Shown piece after piece: positions 4,238 to 62,868 of a stretch of 64,000 nt of DNA. The notes under the pieces are model-generated. The model was not told the origin of the DNA. It saw nothing but the letters and a program-made list of their open reading frames with translations, and made no database searches. Within the stretch, counting starts at the first letter, position 1; each line of letters starts with the position of its first letter. Origin of the DNA: Clostridiales bacterium (GTDB lineage: Bacteria; Bacillota; Clostridia; Oscillospirales; Butyricicoccaceae); contig JALFIV010000033.1 in NCBI GenBank assembly GCA_022775385.1, positions 1 through 64,000 of the forward strand, written 5' to 3'. A program made the translations under genes and the position numbers.

Positions 4238-5371
4238 ATGAAGCGAATGGGATTGGCTGTCCTGCTCGGGCTCTGTCTGACAATAACGGCGCAGGCAGCC
4301 GGGCTCCCGGACGGCAGTGCGAAATCGGCGATTCTGATGGCGTCCGACGGCACGGTGCTGTATGAGTCCAACGCGGACGAATCGCTCCCGCCGGCATCCG
4401 TCACCAAGATCATGACCATGCTGCTGACGATGGAGGCGCTGGACGAAGGCCGTGTTCAGCTGACCGATATGGTGACCGCATCCGCCAATGCCTGCTCGAT
4501 GGGCGGCACGCAGATCTACCTCAAGGAAGGCGAACAGATGACGATGGACGACATGCTCAAGTCGATTGCCATTGGGTCGGCAAACGACGCGGCGGTCGCG
4601 GTCGCGGAGCATCTGGGCGGCAGTGAAGAAGGGTTTGTCAATCGGATGAACGAGCGTGCCGCGGAGCTGGGATGCACAGGGACGACGTTTGTCAATCCGA
4701 ACGGTCTGGATACCGACGGGGAGCAGACGCTGACGACTGCGCGCGATCTGGCGCTCATCTCGCGGGAGCTGATGAAGCACGAGAAGATCTACGATTACAC
4801 AACGACATGGATGGACACCGTGCGCGGCGGCGCGTTTCAGCTGGCGAACACCAACAAGATGCTGCGGCAGTATGACGGGATGACCGGACTCAAGACCGGA
4901 TATACGAGTGCAGCGGGATTCTGCATCTCCGCGACAGCGCGGCGGGACGGGATGGACTTAATTGCGGTGGTCATGGGCGAACCGGATAAGGAGTCGCGCA
5001 ATGCGGACATCACCGCGATGCTCAACTATGGATTTGCCGGATACGGGATGGTGCCGATTCTGTCGGAGACCGATGTGCTCCCGTCGTCGGCGGTCGCACT
5101 GGGGAAGAAGGACCGCGTTTCGGCGGCGCTGGCGGACGACACGCCGGTGCTGATGCGCAAGGAGCAGGCGGGAACGGTGGAGCGGACGATACGGATGGAG
5201 GAACAGCTCTCCGCGCCGGTGGAACCCGGGACAAAAATCGGAGAAGTGGTTCTGACGTCGAATGGAGAAGAAGTCGCACGACGGGACATTTTGACCGCCG
5301 AACAGGTGGAAAAGAAGGGAATCAGTGATATTTACCGCGATCTTCTTCGGTTTCTTTTGATGAAATCCTGA
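4238..5371 (+). CDS. D-alanyl-D-alanine carboxypeptidase (DacF-like)
   Basis: 377 aa; signal peptide; SVTKIMTMLL (SxxK), SAN and KTGYTSAAG motifs. Confidence 0.92.
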   Translation: MKRMGLAVLLGLCLTITAQAAGLPDGSAKSAILMASDGTVLYESNADESLPPASVTKIMTMLLTMEALDEGRVQLTDMVTASANACSMGGTQIYLKEGEQMTMDDMLKSIAIGSANDAAVAVAEHLGGSEEGFVNRMNERAAELGCTGTTFVNPNGLDTDGEQTLTTARDLALISRELMKHEKIYDYTTTWMDTVRGGAFQLANTNKMLRQYDGMTGLKTGYTSAAGFCISATARRDGMDLIAVVMGEPDKESRNADITAMLNYGFAGYGMVPILSETDVLPSSAVALGKKDRVSAALADDTPVLMRKEQAGTVERTIRMEEQLSAPVEPGTKIGEVVLTSNGEEVARRDILTAEQVEKKGISDIYRDLLRFLLMKS

Positions 5372-7185: not shown

Positions 7186-7468
7186 AATCGAAAAAAGCAA
7201 ATGCAGAGACCGGAATAGTAGCATCCTGGAGCTGTCAGAGAGCTGTCGGCTGGTGAGAGACAGCAGCGAGAGGAATGTGAATGTCATCCGTGAGCAGTTT
7301 GGGCGAACGGGATCTCCCAAGTAACCGAAATCGGGTCAGCCTCCGTTACAGGGCAAGCATTAAGCAGTTTTTTGCCGATGCGTTCGAGTGGCCGTCCTTT
7401 CCGGCGGCAATAAGAGTGGTACCGCAGAGTTTATCTTTGTCTCTTTCCGAGACGAAGATTTTTTTTTG
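7186..7468 (+). promoter_or_regulatory. T-box riboswitch leader upstream of ilvB
   Basis: aatagtagca near the stem I base; agagagctgtcggctggtgagag AG-bulge/distal-loop-like segment; T-box motif aagagtggtaccgcag (7412-7426); terminator atctttgtctc-tttcc-gagacgaagattttttttt (7433-7468). Confidence 0.9.
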
Positions 7469-18054: not shown

Positions 18055-18106
18055 TGAAGAGGACACAAGGACACCGCTGCAGGGTGCAGCGAAAGAAAGG
18101 GAGTTA

Positions 18107-18277
18107 CTCTGTCCTTTTGCCTGAGAGATTCGCGGGGAAACACCGCGTTGCACCTTCGGCACTCATCCAATGAGATTCTCCAGAGCTCCATCCGTTCACA
18201 GTCTCATCCGGATTTCCGGACACCTGAGAGTGTTACTCCTTCGGCGGGCGCAGGGCAGCGCCGCTTTTCCTGTGAAC
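18107..18277 (-). promoter_or_regulatory. tandem glycine riboswitch (two aptamers)
   Basis: Minus strand aptamer 1 (18277-18194): GTTCACAG...CCGAAGGAGTAACACTCTCAGG...CTGTGAAC; aptamer 2 (18185-18107): CTCTGGAGA...GCCGAAGGTGCAA...AATCTCTCAGGCAAAAGGACAGAG. Canonical glycine-aptamer consensus elements. Confidence 0.93.
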
Positions 18278-53896: not shown

Positions 53897-54052
53897 TTCT
53901 ACGTCGGTTTTTTCGGGTTGTCAAGACATGGCCGGTGAGAAATTGTACGAATTTGCTCCATCTGTCCCGCATTGTGCACAATCCATGCCGTCTGCGCATA
54001 TATTGTCGAGAGACAAATCCGGATGCGAATCGGAGGAAACGGAGGGAATGTT

Positions 54053-55471
54053 ATGTGCGGAATTGCCGGTATGGTCGGCGCGGCGTGCTCCTATGAGACC
54101 GCGCTCCGGATGCTTGCCGCGATGCAGCGCAGAGGGCCGGATCAGCGCGGCATCTGGCAGGACGGAGATACGACGCTGATTCACTCGCGTCTGGCGGTCA
54201 TTGACATCGAGCACGGGCTTCAGCCGATGACATGGACGCAGGGCGAGCGGAGCTGTACGATTGTCTACAACGGGGAGATCTACAACACGCCCGAGCTGCG
54301 CAGTGCACTGGAGGGGCGCGGACATATCCTGCGGACGCAGTCGGATACCGAGATTGTGCTCCACGCCTATCTGGAGTGGGGAGAGGACTGTGTCCTGCAT
54401 CTCAACGGGATTTTTGCGTTTGCGGTGTGGGATTCGGCCTGTCAGGCGCTGTTTTTCGCGCGCGACCGCATCGGTGTAAAGCCATTCTTCTTTACAGAGA
54501 GAGGCGGACGCTTCTGCTTTGCCTCCGAGATCAAAACCCTGCTGTGCTGTCCAGGGGTGGAGCCATGCATCCATGCGGACGGGGTGTTTGAGCTGATGCT
54601 GCTCGGTCCGGGGCGCACGCCGGGATGCGGGGTGTTCCGGGATGTGCAGGAGCTGCGTCCGGGGTACTGCGGATGGTTTGACACCAGACGCGGATTCTCT
54701 CAGAGGCAGTACTGGCGGCTGCGCGATTGTCCGCACACGGACACGCTCGAGCAGACGGTGGAGACCGTGCGCGGTCTGGTTTCGGATGCGGTGCGGCGGC
54801 AGCTGGTCAGCGATGTGCCGCTGTGCACGTTCCTGTCGGGCGGACTGGATTCCAGCATTCTCTCAGCACTCGCCGCACGGGAGTACCGCAAGCGCGGAAA
54901 GACCCTGCACACGGTGTCGGTGACCTATCGGGACAACCGGAAATATTTCCAAGCGACAAAGTTTCAGCCCAACACGGATGACGACTTCATCGCGCGGATG
55001 AACGAGGCGATCGGGGCGGAGAATCATCTGATCACAATCGACACGCCGCAGCTCGTCGATGCGCTGTTCGAGGCAGTCGAGGCGCGCGATCTGCCGGGAA
55101 TGGCGGATGTGGATTCGTCCCTGCTGCTGTTCTGCCGCGAGATAAAAAAACTCGGCACCGTCGCGCTTTCTGGCGAGTGTGCCGATGAAATCTTCGGCGG
55201 GTATCCGTGGTACCGCGACCCGGAGGTTCGGCGGCGGGCGGGATTCCCGTGGGCGCAGTCCACCGCCTACCGCGCGTCATTCCTGCGCGAGGAGTGGAAA
55301 CAATACCGCGACCCGATGCAGTATGTCGATCAGAAATATCAGGAGACGATTGCTCAGGTTCAGCCGATTGAGAACGACACGCCGGACGACCGGCGCATCC
55401 GGGAGATGACCCAGCTGAATTTCCTGTGGTTTATGCAGACGCTGCTCGATGCAAACGTCCCAGCGGTCTGA
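54053..55471 (+). pseudogene. asnB: asparagine synthetase (glutamine-hydrolysing), 3'-truncated by the integrated element
   Basis: MCGIAGMVG start; LSGGLDSSIL; LSGECADEIFGGYPWYR; stops after QTLLD where homologues continue (RKDRMSM...). Confidence 0.85.
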
Positions 55472-55472
55472 C

Positions 55473-56951
55473 CTACTTCCAGACGATCTGCGTCGGCCGG
55501 TCAGAGCCGATCAGTACGCGGTCGATCAGCATCCGTGCGATGTCGCGCTTGCCGTCGTAGTCCAGCTCGGGGAAGTCGAGATATTCTAGTCCCTCCGGCA
55601 GACGGTACCGCGGCTGATGGCGCGCGATCTCGGCGGTGAGCGCGTCGTGCTCGTCCTCCAGCGCACACAGCTCCGCCTGTACGATGCGGATCGTGGAAGC
55701 GCCGCCGATCTTGATCGCCTCGATCAGATTGAGGGTCTGCTGTTCGTTCTCCAGCAGCTTGATTTTCAGCGCATTCACACCGCTGTCCGCGTCCGGATCG
55801 GTCTCGTCAGGACCGTCGTGCATCAGCGTCCGGACATGGGTTTGGATGGCGTCCGATACATAGGCTTCGTACACGGCAGCATTGCCGTGGATGACGGCGG
55901 TGCACCGTCCGGCGGTGTGGAACCGGTTGTAGCACTGGAGATAGGTTCTGCCTTTGTTCTGAAAGAACGTGATCCGTCCGCCGCACTGTGCGCATTTCAT
56001 CAGACCGGCGAGCCATGTGAGTCTGCTCCGGACGCCGTTCTTGATCTGTTGATTTCCGGACAGTGCGCGCTGTACCGTGAGAAACACGTGGGAGGGGATC
56101 ACACCCGCGTGGTGCGCGAGCGACAGCGTACACGTGCCGCCTGCGGATTTTCCGCCCTTGACGGTCAGATAGGCGGCGTGCGTCCCGTCGAACTCATGCA
56201 CATCGTTCACGATGTGCGCCGATGCGTAGTAGTGCGAGTACAGATCGACATCCGCGGCGGCATACACCGGATTGCGCAGGATGCGGCGCACCGCGGTCGC
56301 GCTCCAGAATTCCGACCGGCTGTCCGGACGGATACCCTTTTCGTTCAGCTCCTTTGCCAGCGAGTGCAGGGAACAGGTGCCGGACGCGTACTGATCGAAC
56401 ATCCAGCGCACCGTGTCCAGCCGCTCCGGAACCGGCGCAAGGACGGACTGATTCCTGCCGTCAATGAGCTGCTTCTCGATCCGGAAGCCGTAGGGCGCTT
56501 TGCCGCCAGCCCAGATGCCGCTGTTCGAGCGGGCATAGCGGTTGGTTGTGTAGCGGCTCACGATGGTCTCGCGCTCGAGCTGCGCGAACGCCATGATGAT
56601 GATCACCATCGCGCGTCCCATCGGGGAATTCGTGTCGAAGGACTCCGTGATGCTGGTAAACTCAACATGATGCTCGTCAAAGGTCTGCCAGAGTAAGCTG
56701 AAATCCAGCACCGAACGCGAGATGCGGTCGAGCCGGTAGCAGAACACCCGCTTGATCTTTCCCGCTTTCACGTCGTCCATGAGCTGGGAAAAGGCGGGGC
56801 GCTGGGTGTTCTTGCCGGAGTATCCGGCGTCCTGATACACGGCGGCGTCCGGATCGGCGGCGCGTTTACACAGCGCGATCTGTGATTCGATGGAAAGACT
56901 GTCCTTCTTCTCGATGGACTGACGGGCGTAAATCGCGTCAATTCGATTCAT
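55473..56951 (-). CDS. large serine recombinase (integrase)
   Basis: IYARQSIEKKDSLSIESQI; YSGKNTQRPAFSQLM; recombinase domain and zinc ribbon CAQCGG...CYNRFHTAGRC. Confidence 0.95.
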   Translation of the reverse strand: MNRIDAIYARQSIEKKDSLSIESQIALCKRAADPDAAVYQDAGYSGKNTQRPAFSQLMDDVKAGKIKRVFCYRLDRISRSVLDFSLLWQTFDEHHVEFTSITESFDTNSPMGRAMVIIIMAFAQLERETIVSRYTTNRYARSNSGIWAGGKAPYGFRIEKQLIDGRNQSVLAPVPERLDTVRWMFDQYASGTCSLHSLAKELNEKGIRPDSRSEFWSATAVRRILRNPVYAAADVDLYSHYYASAHIVNDVHEFDGTHAAYLTVKGGKSAGGTCTLSLAHHAGVIPSHVFLTVQRALSGNQQIKNGVRSRLTWLAGLMKCAQCGGRITFFQNKGRTYLQCYNRFHTAGRCTAVIHGNAAVYEAYVSDAIQTHVRTLMHDGPDETDPDADSGVNALKIKLLENEQQTLNLIEAIKIGGASTIRIVQAELCALEDEHDALTAEIARHQPRYRLPEGLEYLDFPELDYDGKRDIARMLIDRVLIGSDRPTQIVWK

Positions 56952-56999
56952 TTCGTCATCTCCTTTATTTACTTTTTGAAATGGATATAGTAAAATAAA

Positions 57000-57036
57000 G
57001 GAGCAGAAAAGACCGGTCAAAGTTTTTATCTGCTCC
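57000..57036 (-). terminator. putative terminator upstream of the recombinase
   Basis: Minus strand GGAGCAGA...TCTGCTCC followed by TTTATTTT. Confidence 0.6.
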
Positions 57037-57083: not shown

Positions 57084-57752
57084 CTACTGTTCTTTCAGCG
57101 CTTCTGCCAGCTGGCGGAATAACCTCCTGTAATCTGTACAGATACAGCCGAAGATTTCCTGTGCTGTGCCTTCATTGTATGTGTGGGAAGTGAGATTGCG
57201 GTCGTTCAGCAGTTTGCTCCACAGAGCATCCTCGTCGATTAAACCGGCTGCATATGCTTCGCGCATGACCGCCTTTGGGGTATTTCGGAATTCGACGCCT
57301 TCCTCCAGCAGATATTCCCGAACCGTTTTCCAAGCCAGCTCGGTACAGAATTCAAAACGCTGAATAATCCCGTCGCGGATAATATCAGAGGGTGCCATTT
57401 CATAGGCTGTAATCGACTCGTCCAGCCGATCCACTGCCATACAGTACTTTGCATATTTTTCATTAAACTTTGTCATAAGATCAATGCCCTCTCTTTCTAC
57501 ATTCTGAATCAATGCGGGAGACAATGGATCGTCCATAAAGATGACATCAAACGAAAGCAAGGTGGGAAGATCATCGATGGCATCCAGAAAGGAACAGCGC
57601 GCTTCACGCGGCAGACCATAGACGGCAAGATCAATGTCGCTGCGCTGGCGGTGATCGCCGCGGGCACGGGAGCCGTACAGGACGATGCGCTGTGCACCCA
57701 GATTCCGACCGACAGCCGCGATCTGCTGATAGAGTTCATTGGGCTGAGACAT
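57084..57752 (-). CDS. fused MNT nucleotidyltransferase + HEPN (HI0074-like) protein
   Basis: GSRARGDHRQRSDIDLAV (MNT) and C-terminal helical domain with DRNLTSHTYNE (RX4-6H HEPN motif). Confidence 0.88.
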   Translation of the reverse strand: MSQPNELYQQIAAVGRNLGAQRIVLYGSRARGDHRQRSDIDLAVYGLPREARCSFLDAIDDLPTLLSFDVIFMDDPLSPALIQNVEREGIDLMTKFNEKYAKYCMAVDRLDESITAYEMAPSDIIRDGIIQRFEFCTELAWKTVREYLLEEGVEFRNTPKAVMREAYAAGLIDEDALWSKLLNDRNLTSHTYNEGTAQEIFGCICTDYRRLFRQLAEALKEQ

Positions 57753-57768
57753 AAGCACTCCTTTCCTT

Positions 57769-57865: not shown

Positions 57866-59572
57866 TTAAACATTGCGATTTCTTCCGTAATAGATAATTC
57901 CTTTGCGCAAACGCTGACGATATCTGCATCCGCCGGCAAAGGTTTGATCCGGATGAATACACTGCTTTGCATCACTGCACTGCTCATACCGAGAACAGCA
58001 GTCAAATCCGTCTGCGCTGTTAAATAAGCAATACTCATACATTTCAATCCAGAGTGGAGCGAGAGCATCCCAATCTGTTCCGGCAACAGGAAAACGCGGC
58101 CATGGCTGATTCTTCATGGTTTGTATAGGAATGATCGCTTGGCAGGCTTTCTTCATCGCCGGCATAATGTATGCATACTTTATTACCTCGCCGTTGAAAC
58201 GAAGGCATGTTTTATTACAGAAATTGATGACATAGTATGGTTTCGATTGTCCTGGGTTCCGGGGATCTAACTTGATTTTAAGATCGTGATATCCGGCAGA
58301 AGTCAGAACAGATTCGATTTTGGAAAAAATCTGGTCTTCGTTGAGGATCTCGGTATTCGTGGATTTCAATGCTTCGAAAAAAACAGATTCGCGAATAATT
58401 TTTACATTAGATCCGTTTTGCTGGTTTTCCAATGCCTTTTGAATTTTTGTTCCATAGCATCCGCATGACCAGGCATCGCTTCCTTTATTTCCGACGATTA
58501 AGTACGAGAGATTTTTTACAACGGATTTTCTCACTACTGCGCCGAGATCGGACAGCATGGCATGGACTTCTTCCTTATCACCATAGTCAAAGTCTCCGGT
58601 CGTGCAGACAGATTTTCCTACGATGTCCAGCGGTTCTTTCGGAATTGTGAAGTAAGAATCAATATCAATAATGACCGGTTCTTCTGCCGGATCAGGGCAG
58701 GACTGATTGCAGGCAACGAGGGGATCGGACAGAACGCAGGTTTTGATGTGTGCGGAAAGATCCAGTCCATCCTCCAACATTTTTAAAAGAATTTTCGCAC
58801 AGGCTCTTGTATCACTCTCTGCATTGTGATGGTCGAGCTCGATATGAAATTCATCGCACAGGACATTGAGAGCATGACTGCAGAATTCCGGATACATCTG
58901 TTTAGACATATTCAACGTGCAAGCATAAGAAACAGGAAGCTCAGGAAGCCCATAGAATGAAAACGTTTTTTTCAATACCGAAATATCATAGGGTGCATTA
59001 TGCGCAACAAGCAGAGTATTCTTGAAAAACGGCTGGATCTTTTCCCAGATCTGCGGGAATGTCGGCGATATCTCAGCCTGATCCGGAGTGATATCGTTTA
59101 CACCCATGTTGTAAAGATCAAAATGCGTTTCCGGATTGACGACAGAGTAAAACGAATCCGTTTCTACACCGTTTTCAAGCAGTAGCAGTCCAATCGAACA
59201 GATACGATCACTATTTGAGTTTGGCGTTTCTACGTCAAACACACAGATTCTTTTGTATTCAGAAGGGAATGTAACTGTTTTCAGCACTTGATCGGATAAT
59301 GAAGCCTTGGCTTTTGGCTGCATTTCTTTCAGAAACTCTGGGTCAATACAACTCAATTCTCCGCCAATATCAATAACGGCGGCCCATTGATCGGCATAAC
59401 CGACGACTGTGCATGGTTCAGATATTTTTGAAATTGCATCAATATGAAGGAATTTCTTTGGCTCTGTTGCACTGTTCGGGATTAATTTATATTCTTTTAA
59501 ATATGCTAATAACTGTTGTCCTTCAAGGCGCGTCCATCCTTCAGGAGGCGGTACAGTAAATCGTTTTTGCAT
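57866..59572 (-). CDS. multidomain DnaQ-like 3'-5' exonuclease with BRCT domain and Cys-rich C-terminus
   Basis: CVFDVETPNSNSDRI, AHNAPYDI, HNAESDTRACA (DEDDh); DIVGKSVCTTGDFDYGDKEEVHAMLSDLGAVVRKSVVKNLSYLIVGN (BRCT); CC-x5-C-x5-C tail. Confidence 0.88.
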   Translation of the reverse strand: MQKRFTVPPPEGWTRLEGQQLLAYLKEYKLIPNSATEPKKFLHIDAISKISEPCTVVGYADQWAAVIDIGGELSCIDPEFLKEMQPKAKASLSDQVLKTVTFPSEYKRICVFDVETPNSNSDRICSIGLLLLENGVETDSFYSVVNPETHFDLYNMGVNDITPDQAEISPTFPQIWEKIQPFFKNTLLVAHNAPYDISVLKKTFSFYGLPELPVSYACTLNMSKQMYPEFCSHALNVLCDEFHIELDHHNAESDTRACAKILLKMLEDGLDLSAHIKTCVLSDPLVACNQSCPDPAEEPVIIDIDSYFTIPKEPLDIVGKSVCTTGDFDYGDKEEVHAMLSDLGAVVRKSVVKNLSYLIVGNKGSDAWSCGCYGTKIQKALENQQNGSNVKIIRESVFFEALKSTNTEILNEDQIFSKIESVLTSAGYHDLKIKLDPRNPGQSKPYYVINFCNKTCLRFNGEVIKYAYIMPAMKKACQAIIPIQTMKNQPWPRFPVAGTDWDALAPLWIEMYEYCLFNSADGFDCCSRYEQCSDAKQCIHPDQTFAGGCRYRQRLRKGIIYYGRNRNV

Positions 59573-59590: not shown

Positions 59591-59635
59591 TCCCTCGTCT
59601 GTGGCACCAGCACGGACGGGGGAATTTTTTATTTT
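59591..59635 (+). repeat. cargo-flanking intergenic hairpin, divergent copy 3
   Basis: tccctcgtctgtggcaccagcacggacgggggaattttttatttt. Confidence 0.55.
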
Positions 59636-60051
59636 CTCTTTTTGATCTGAAATTCCAGATAATCCGTCGCATCCAGCAATTCGGCTGCTGTCGCTTGCTT
59701 TGCTACCGACAGCACGCGCTCCACATTGGGGTGGGTAAGCGTTTCGGAGTCGAACCCTTCGGTTCCGGCTAGCGTAGATGCCACCTGCTGTGCGGTGTGT
59801 ATGGTTTCGCTGAGTTCAACCGTATGTGTGACAAGGTTGACCGCCGGATCTTCCGACCAGCCCATGAGATATCCTGGGGTTGTTTGTAAAGCCTTAGCGA
59901 TGGGTTTAATTTTTTCAATGCTCATTCCCTTGATTTCCTGTGATTCGTAACGATACACAGTGGACGGGGAAACGCCCATAATTTCTGCAACGCGTTCGGC
60001 ACTTAGTCCAAGTTCTTTGCGTCGGTCCTTAATTCGTTTACCAACATCCAT
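59629..60051 (-). CDS. cI-like HTH XRE-family repressor
   Basis: IKDRRKELGLSAERVAEIMGVSPSTVYRYESQEIKGMSIEKI. Confidence 0.9.
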   Translation of the reverse strand: MDVGKRIKDRRKELGLSAERVAEIMGVSPSTVYRYESQEIKGMSIEKIKPIAKALQTTPGYLMGWSEDPAVNLVTHTVELSETIHTAQQVASTLAGTEGFDSETLTHPNVERVLSVAKQATAAELLDATDYLEFQIKKRK

Positions 60052-60084: not shown

Positions 60085-60185
60085 CTTGCAAAAATGCAAG
60101 AAAAATTTTGCGAAAACGCGAAAATCATATTGACAACTTGCGAATATGCGAGTAAACTGTAAACATAAACTTGCGAATATGCGAG
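60085..60185. promoter_or_regulatory. divergent early promoter/operator region with four CTYGCR-N4-YGCRAG-type operators
   Basis: CTTGCAAAAATGCAAG (60085-60100), TTTGCGAAAACGCGAA (60107-60122), CTTGCGAATATGCGAG (60137-60152 and 60170-60185); TTGACA at 60130 and TAAACT at 60153. Confidence 0.85.
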
Positions 60186-60196
60186 GAGGTGATCCG

Positions 60197-60448
60197 ATGA
60201 GCGTAAAAACTGAAAAAATCTCAGAAAGGGCTTCTGAATTGAGAATGTCCGGAGATGATATTGCTGGTGCGCTTGGCGTAAATCCATCTACATACTATCG
60301 CAAAATGTCCAGTGGAGGAAAAGCATTTACTGTGGAACAGGCACAGTGTCTTGTTGATGTACTGGGTTTCACGAAGGACGAGGCAATTGATATTTTTTTT
60401 GCAGATAAACTCGCGGAAACGCGAGAAAATTCTAACACAACCAGTTGA
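60197..60448 (+). CDS. Cro-like HTH regulator
   Basis: 83 aa; RMSGDDIAGALGVNPSTYYRKMSSGG; divergent from cI-like gene; RBS gaggaggt. Confidence 0.85.
   Translation: MSVKTEKISERASELRMSGDDIAGALGVNPSTYYRKMSSGGKAFTVEQAQCLVDVLGFTKDEAIDIFFADKLAETRENSNTTS
60410..60425. promoter_or_regulatory. fifth operator-like palindrome inside the 3' end of the cro-like gene
   Basis: CTCGCG-GAAA-CGCGAG. Confidence 0.6.
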
Positions 60449-60567: not shown

Positions 60568-60768
60568 ATGAGTCCATATCAACAGGTAATGAAATACTGC
60601 AAGGAACACGCGCCGCATGCCGTCCGTGTTGTCTACCGGCATACCGACGGAACGCTGGTTACGTTCCGGTATTCCGACATGGCGTACATGGGACGCTGTC
60701 CCTTTGACGATCTGGTCCATGTTCCGGATATCCCTCCGGAGCTGGCAGAGACCGTGCCCGATCGGTAA
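60568..60768 (+). CDS. small hypothetical phage protein
   Basis: 66 aa MSPYQQVMKYCKEHAPHAVRVVYRHTDGTLVTFRYSDMAYMGRCPFDD. Confidence 0.7.
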   Translation: MSPYQQVMKYCKEHAPHAVRVVYRHTDGTLVTFRYSDMAYMGRCPFDDLVHVPDIPPELAETVPDR

Positions 60769-60782
60769 TTCTGCCCGGTGCC

Positions 60783-60940
60783 TGTGCGGCGCCGTCAGCA
60801 TCCAATCAAATACGGCAAAAAATACTTACAAAGGAAAAATCCTTAGTCTTACTTGTACGACCTCTTACTACTTTTTGCCCTGTTTTCTCTCTCTTTTATC
60901 GGGATGCCGTTTCCCGGTTGGATGCTGACGGCGCTGCATG
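60783..60940 (+). ncRNA. candidate structured RNA element (multi-stem, unassigned)
   Basis: Arms TGTGCGGCGCCGTCAGCATCCAA and TTGGATGCTGACGGCGCTGCATG pair over 23 positions (20 Watson-Crick, 3 G-U); internal hairpins AAGGA/TCCTT, CGGGA/TCCCG and a GGCAAAAA/TTTTTGCC stem. Confidence 0.6.
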
Positions 60941-60967
60941 AGCGACAACATAACAGGAGGTGCCGTT

Positions 60968-61417
60968 ATGGCAAAAAACAAGAATATCCACACACTGTGC
61001 AGAATGTGTTATGAGCGGATGAAATCCGACCGCATGATTACGTTTGCGGGCGGAAAGACACACAAGGGCGTCTGTGCATCCTGCGGAGCACAGGGGAACG
61101 TAGCGCGATATAACGTCCATCTGGATGAGCCGCCTGCGCCGACACTCACGGCAAACGGAAGCGCCAGAACCGGAAAGCGTGAGCTGCCGGATGAGGTGCG
61201 TGAGCGCATCCGGGAGAAAGCGCAGCAGTCCGCTGTGGATGCGGACAAGCTCCGCGTCATGGTTACCCTGCACATCGATCCCAGAACGTGCAATTCGCTG
61301 GCGCACATGGCGAAGAACTGGGGGAAGTCGATGGATGAGACGGTTGATATTGTGGTGTCGCGCTATCGCAAGAGTGTTTCGGTGCGTCACAGACAGACGG
61401 AGCAGAGCCATGATTGA
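60968..61417 (+). CDS. phage protein with zinc-ribbon-like N-terminus and RHH-like C-terminus
   Basis: CRMCYE...CASCGA and C-terminal VTLHIDPRTCNSLAHMAKNWGKSMDETVDIVVSRYRK. Confidence 0.75.
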   Translation: MAKNKNIHTLCRMCYERMKSDRMITFAGGKTHKGVCASCGAQGNVARYNVHLDEPPAPTLTANGSARTGKRELPDEVRERIREKAQQSAVDADKLRVMVTLHIDPRTCNSLAHMAKNWGKSMDETVDIVVSRYRKSVSVRHRQTEQSHD

Positions 61418-62085: not shown

Positions 62086-62184
62086 CGACAAAAAAAGACG
62101 CCGAGGCGAAGCACAACCGGCTTCGTCTCAGCGTCAACCAAAAATATCTATTATTATTTTACCACCGAAGGAGGGGTGGTGTCA

Positions 62185-62868
62185 ATGAATGAAATGAAAA
62201 TGGAGAGCGCGTACTGGGTTTCGATTCCAGTACAGCTGCTGGAAGATGAATCGCTTCCGCACGCGGCGCTTCGGCTCTATGGAATCATCGGGAGCCTGAC
62301 CTATTCCAGAGGATATTGCTATGCGTCCAATGAGACGCTGGCAGGCAAGATGCACAGCACCGTGCGGACGATACAGAACAACCTCGCGGTGCTCCGGGAA
62401 CGTGGATATATTGCGGTGCAGGATGCCGAGGGGCAGCGCCGAATTTATCAGGCAGATCTGAAAAACAGAGAGGAAGGAACCTGCACCCAAGGGGTGAAAA
62501 AAACTTCATCCCATGAAAATAATTTCTCGGATGGGTGCAAAAAATTTCGCGAAACCCATGAAAAAAGTTTCACCCAAGAAAGAATAAAAGAGAAAGAAAA
62601 GAGAGAAAACGCGAAGAAACATCGGGAGGACAAGCTCGCGTTCGGACGACGCGGGCTGGTTATGCTCACCAAGCAGGAATATGAGAGGCTGTGTACCGAT
62701 GCCATCAGCACGCAGGCGGTACAGGATGCGGTCACCGCGCTGGAGGCATACATAGCAAACGGTAAGGGACGGAAGTACAAGGATCACTATCTCACCCTGC
62801 TCAACTGGCTGCGGCGCGATCACAAGCTGAGAGAACAGCAGGACGGGCGGAAGGATGAGTTTTGGTAA
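62185..62868 (+). CDS. phage replication initiator-like HTH protein
   Basis: PHAALRLYGIIGSLTYSRGYCYASNETLAGKMHSTVRTIQNNLAVLRERGYI; immediately upstream of dnaB. Confidence 0.82.
   Translation: MNEMKMESAYWVSIPVQLLEDESLPHAALRLYGIIGSLTYSRGYCYASNETLAGKMHSTVRTIQNNLAVLRERGYIAVQDAEGQRRIYQADLKNREEGTCTQGVKKTSSHENNFSDGCKKFRETHEKSFTQERIKEKEKRENAKKHREDKLAFGRRGLVMLTKQEYERLCTDAISTQAVQDAVTALEAYIANGKGRKYKDHYLTLLNWLRRDHKLREQQDGRKDEFW
62491..62571 (+). repeat. four 17-bp iterons inside the replication initiator gene (putative origin)
   Basis: GGGGTGAAAAAAACTTC (62491), CCCATGAAAATAATTTC (62510), TGGGTGCAAAAAATTTC (62532), CCCATGAAAAAAGTTTC (62555). Confidence 0.75.

Follow-up and report, generated by a model that had tools for sequence, protein, structure and literature searches.

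A long inverted repeat in the predicted early operon of a Butyricicoccaceae prophage: a candidate cis-acting RNA hairpin

Results and Discussion

The prophage and its early region

The window, by which we mean the whole 64,000-nt stretch of clostridial DNA analyzed here, covers the left part of a prophage of ~32 kb (about 55445-87361 of the contig) that interrupts asnB. The 5' part of this gene (window 53972-55471) ends in ...FMQTLLD, and the 3' part resumes with LLDRKDRMSMYSGLEVRVPFCDH on contig C91 from about 87358 onward. As CTCGA is common to both prophage junctions, it is conceivable that asnB would be restored if the serine integrase excised the prophage precisely. The prophage also codes for a fused nucleotidyltransferase and HepT/NTase-substrate-binding protein (57084-57758), whose gene adjoins one on the minus strand (57866-59572) for a protein combining a DEDDh exonuclease domain with a BRCT domain. 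Both genes match candidate defense models; the defense-system models gave no match to the 66-aa gene or the CxxC gene described below.

Beyond the CI-like repressor gene lies a predicted early rightward promoter with a consensus-like match, flanked by repressor-type operator-like sites (Table 1). The operators within 60108-60185 take the form TTGCGAA(A/T)A(C/T)GCGA, and a related palindrome, TCGCGGAAACGCGA, is found at the 3' end of the cro-like gene (60411-60424). The element that is the subject of this study, an inverted repeat spanning 60783-60940, occupies a 199-nt untranslated spacer between the 66-aa orphan gene and the gene for a 149-aa CxxC protein, in the sense direction of the predicted early operon. 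Both the order of the genes and the promoter match are consistent with its being an early-operon spacer. A preliminary description of this DNA had placed the element ~20 nt before the AGGAGG ribosome-binding site (RBS) of the next gene; the RBS is indeed just downstream, at a distance of 14 nt. The same description held that the element contains no open reading frame. Mechanically called reading frames do span the region, but none of them is gene-like.

Table 1. Features of the inverted repeat and its surroundings, in window coordinates
Feature	Position	Strand	Remarks
Large serine integrase	55473-57020	-	
CI-like repressor	59629-60051	-	
Operator-like sites, repressor-type	60108, 60138, 60171, 60411		Flank the early promoter
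Early rightward promoter, TTGACA-17-TAAACT	60130-60158	+	Predicted, consensus-like; putative source of the transcript
cro-like gene	60197-60448	+	
66-aa orphan gene	60568-60768	+	Directly upstream of element
Left arm, TGTGCGGCGCCGTCAGCATCCAATC	60783-60807	+	25 paired positions
AT-rich interior, 108 nt, 38% G+C	60808-60915	+	Folding, composition
Nested stem	60808-60885	+	Folding of interior
Hairpin AAGGA-AAAA-TCCTT	about 60831-60845	+	Folding of interior
G-poor pyrimidine tract, 88% C/T	60861-60900	+	Composition scan of prophage
Small CGGGA hairpin	60900-60916	+	Folding of interior
Right arm, GGTTGGATGCTGACGGCGCTGCATG	60916-60940	+	Partner of left arm
AGGAGG RBS of CxxC gene	60955-60960	+	14 nt past stem
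149-aa CxxC gene	60968-61417	+	Directly downstream of element; ribbon-helix-helix match weak, below cut-off
Replication initiator	62179-62868		~1.2 kb downstream of element
DnaB	62862 onward		

Architecture and statistics of the inverted repeat

The two arms pair over all 25 of their consecutive positions, through 21 Watson-Crick and 4 G-U pairs, and enclose 108 nt. The preliminary description had reported full pairing over 23 positions, a slight underestimate, with G-U as the only kind of non-Watson-Crick pair, which is indeed the case. A repeat search recovered a 21-nt core of the arms, 95% complementary, as its top match in the window. When gap-free helices with loops of up to about 400 nt were ranked across the whole 64-kb window, this helix had the highest count of Watson-Crick pairs, the runner-up having 17 pairs and a loop of 6 nt. 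In four windows simulated with a first-order Markov model, no helix went beyond 15 Watson-Crick pairs, within a run of 17, and a chance origin of the stem is thus excluded in practice. Across ~0.87 Mb of scanned sequence, an independent inverted repeat of comparable length was encountered only in the contigs L046 and L047 (19 pairs, 46-nt loop). These are related phage contigs that have the 19-pair hairpin in common (4400-4483 in each), with a helicase gene ~1.5 kb downstream of it, and the sequence differences between their two versions preserve the pairing by way of G-U.

The element folds far more stably than its shuffled counterparts: the plus strand reaches -70.5 kcal/mol against -40.3 +/- 3.9 for the shuffles (z -7.7), and the minus strand -68.7 kcal/mol (z -6.5 against shuffles). 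Nearly all of this signal comes from the outer stem. Folded alone, the 108-nt interior is marginal (z -1.7 on the plus and -2.3 on the minus strand, against shuffles), as reflected in the values for the nested stem (z -2.4) and the small CGGGA hairpin (z -2.6). The inner stems named earlier (AAGGA/TCCTT, CGGGA/TCCCG and the nested one) are all present, but the branched multi-hairpin fold that they were said to form is not clearly significant without the outer stem. In base composition, the interior differs from both the arms (64% G+C) and the window (58% G+C), and no other 40-nt stretch of the prophage plus strand is as rich in pyrimidines as the tract within it.

The G-U wobbles had been taken as a hint of selection at the level of RNA. 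We regard this as a weak argument, because just two of the four wobbles have further Watson-Crick pairs beyond them, the outermost two constituting the end of the helix, and because both strands fold almost equally well. The latter observation in itself counts against a reading at the RNA level. Of the proposal that the element is a new structured RNA, what stands is a real, stable closing stem a short way upstream of a gene; a new branched RNA is not established, since the outer stem supplies nearly all of the folding signal and the interior is marginal.

Search for relatives

The prophage has almost no relatives in public collections, and the element is present as a single copy in its own genome in blastn searches. 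Searches with the element by blastn against its own genome, 60 relatives, and phage and plasmid collections returned just short matches at the level of chance, and when the 2-kb early region was compared with 86 other genomes of the family, it matched none of them at the DNA level. The pair of arms, with a variable gap between them, was found nowhere in the viral and genome contigs scanned, and a pattern drawn from the interior in none of the viral contigs. The sole viral match to one arm (in L014) is set in different phage sequence and has no partner arm, and single-arm matches within the genus each carry two mismatches, with none seen paired. A covariance model (R1), run over 99 genomes and 76 sources, recovered only the element itself; it was built from one sequence and is therefore weak enough that distant relatives may be missed. 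Rfam gave nothing at the gathering score for either strand of the element, the sub-threshold matches being to plant microRNA precursors only; that to MIR172, far below the gathering score on both strands, was dismissed as an artefact of the long hairpin. Elsewhere in the window, a T-box leader (7197-7447, plus strand) and a glycine riboswitch (18099-18193, minus strand) lie above their Rfam gathering scores. A search of the literature for close parallels found no description of this element.

The flanking genes are similarly short of relatives. The 66-aa gene has one homologue (in L038, 75% identical), which the next gene follows straight on with the element absent, and the CxxC gene has one distant homologue (in L036, 29% identity), which stands directly behind another gene, again with the element absent. 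As the single homologue of each neighbor lacks it, the element appears, on this thin evidence, to be tied to neither gene.

Functional interpretation

We consider a cis-acting RNA structure to be the best single reading of the element. Within it, we tentatively favor, at somewhat short of even chances, a hairpin in the early phage mRNA that probably functions as a processing or stability site of the RNase III type. Long regular helices in transcripts are good substrates of RNase III, and we favor this reading because an unbroken helix of such length in a transcribed spacer would be one. Against the ~20 or more regular pairs on the transcribed strand that characterize such sites, the element offers 25 consecutive pairs on the plus strand, and the host genome has an RNase III gene matched above the curated cut-off. 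The context is also supportive: the element lies on the sense strand, with a consensus-like promoter and operators upstream, a good RBS shortly downstream, and genes for the repressor, the cro-like protein, the initiator and DnaB in the same region.

In the mechanism that we envisage, RNA polymerase starting at the early promoter, under the control of the operators, would transcribe the cro-like and 66-aa genes and continue into the 199-nt spacer, where the arms would close in the transcript to form the unbroken helix of 25 pairs. This helix would then act as the RNase III-type processing or stability site, at which the early mRNA may be cut or shielded. As a consequence, the 66-aa gene would be expressed separately from the genes that follow the spacer, namely the CxxC gene and, after it, those for replication. 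The closest counterparts would be the RNase III processing hairpins of phage early transcripts, such as the early-region sites of T7 and the N-leader site of lambda. Like these, the element would place a long regular helix in an untranslated part of an early transcript, near the next RBS, in a host with RNase III. Unlike these, it has a 108-nt interior in place of a short loop, and no sequence relatives were found for it. Indeed, the AT-rich and marginally folding interior, which is unlike the short loops typical of known processing hairpins, counts against the RNase III reading, as do the lack of a homologue in our searches and the absence of the element beside the homologues of its neighbors.

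Two other ways of acting in cis fared poorly. Sequestration of the RBS was rejected: the interior contains an ACCUCUU able to pair with AGGAGGU, yet 40% of shuffled loops do equally well, and the AGGAGG is predicted to be about equally accessible with and without the stem. A Rho-dependent rut site was likewise rejected: extreme as the C/T tract is within the prophage, the host genome (92% complete) yielded no Rho gene, TIGR00767 matching only the ATP synthase subunits AtpD and AtpA, both below the cut-off.

Among the explanations that dispense with a processing site, it is rather unlikely that the arms are the terminal inverted repeats of a non-autonomous, MITE-like element that became fossilized after insertion between two early genes. 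A MITE would likewise display long, nearly perfect inverted repeats flanking a short interior that is non-coding and differs in composition from its surroundings, and the absence of the element beside the single homologue of each neighboring gene would fit an insertion. Nevertheless, it is present in one copy, with none in the 60 relatives searched by blastn and no pair of arms among the viral and genome contigs; inspection of the flanks revealed no target-site duplication beyond 2-3 nt; the single-arm matches in the genus, all with two mismatches, were not seen in pairs; and no parent element was found. Similar geometry would be expected of an inverton, in which a recombinase would invert the AT-rich stretch bounded by the arms and so act as a switch for the gene downstream. 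The length and spacing of the arms and the position of the AT-rich segment upstream of a gene do match the general anatomy of invertons, but a scan for sigma-70-type promoters, the only kind covered, found no match in the interior on either strand, no dedicated invertase was found, and the opposite orientation was not encountered in this assembly. The sole recombinase recognized nearby is the large serine integrase, and enzymes of this type join unlike att sites. We therefore hold an inverton to be improbable. The arms were also compared with att sites; the best agreement, 16/25, falls at the 99th percentile of random places after several comparisons and is not convincing. Still less probable is a site acting as DNA, whether as a cruciform, as a paired binding site for protein or within a replication origin: while the element lies ~1.2 kb upstream of the initiator gene and DnaB and has an AT-rich interior, extrusion of a cruciform is unfavorable with a spacer as long as 108 bp, and there are no iterons in or beside the element, the sole close direct repeats being downstream at 62510-62571, within the initiator gene itself.

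The remaining alternative keeps the function at the RNA level but makes the element a discrete regulatory RNA, either a stem-closed sRNA from one or the other strand or a put-like antiterminator RNA that modifies RNA polymerase in the early operon. Its location downstream of an early promoter resembles that of putR in HK022, about 270 nt from its start site (PMC9378689); in both temperate phages, a structured RNA would be expected to follow the early promoter by some hundred nucleotides within the transcript. For an sRNA, there is a weak promoter match on the minus strand (TTGCCA-16-TATGTT), whose second hexamer ends at 60947 and which would start an RNA near 60940, at the edge of the stem. 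However, this match agrees at 9/12 positions, and promoter-like matches will turn up in this region by chance; neither edge of the stem has a terminator-like site; and neither an Rfam match nor relatives were found. The anatomy also departs from that of put RNAs, which are ~70 nt long, comprise two adjacent stem-loops and lie behind both early promoters (PMC9378689), whereas the element is one closed structure of 158 nt in a single copy. Taken together, we judge a discrete regulatory RNA to be unlikely, and it is more doubtful still that the element is an undescribed kind of antiterminator or sRNA, that is, a phage RNA whose branched polypyrimidine interior is displayed by the 25-pair stem for a protein or RNA polymerase to bind.

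Conclusions

We present a 25-pair inverted repeat that surpasses every other gap-free helix scanned in the window in Watson-Crick pairs and lies between two genes of a predicted early operon. Rather than a demonstrated new class of RNA, it is probably an ordinary regulatory or processing hairpin of the phage. If it indeed acts in cis, it would add another point of control by RNA to the early operon of a prophage whose host apparently lacks Rho. Moreover, should related phages turn out to harbor a family of such closing-stem RNAs, this family could reveal the way in which early phage transcription is steered in hosts of this kind.
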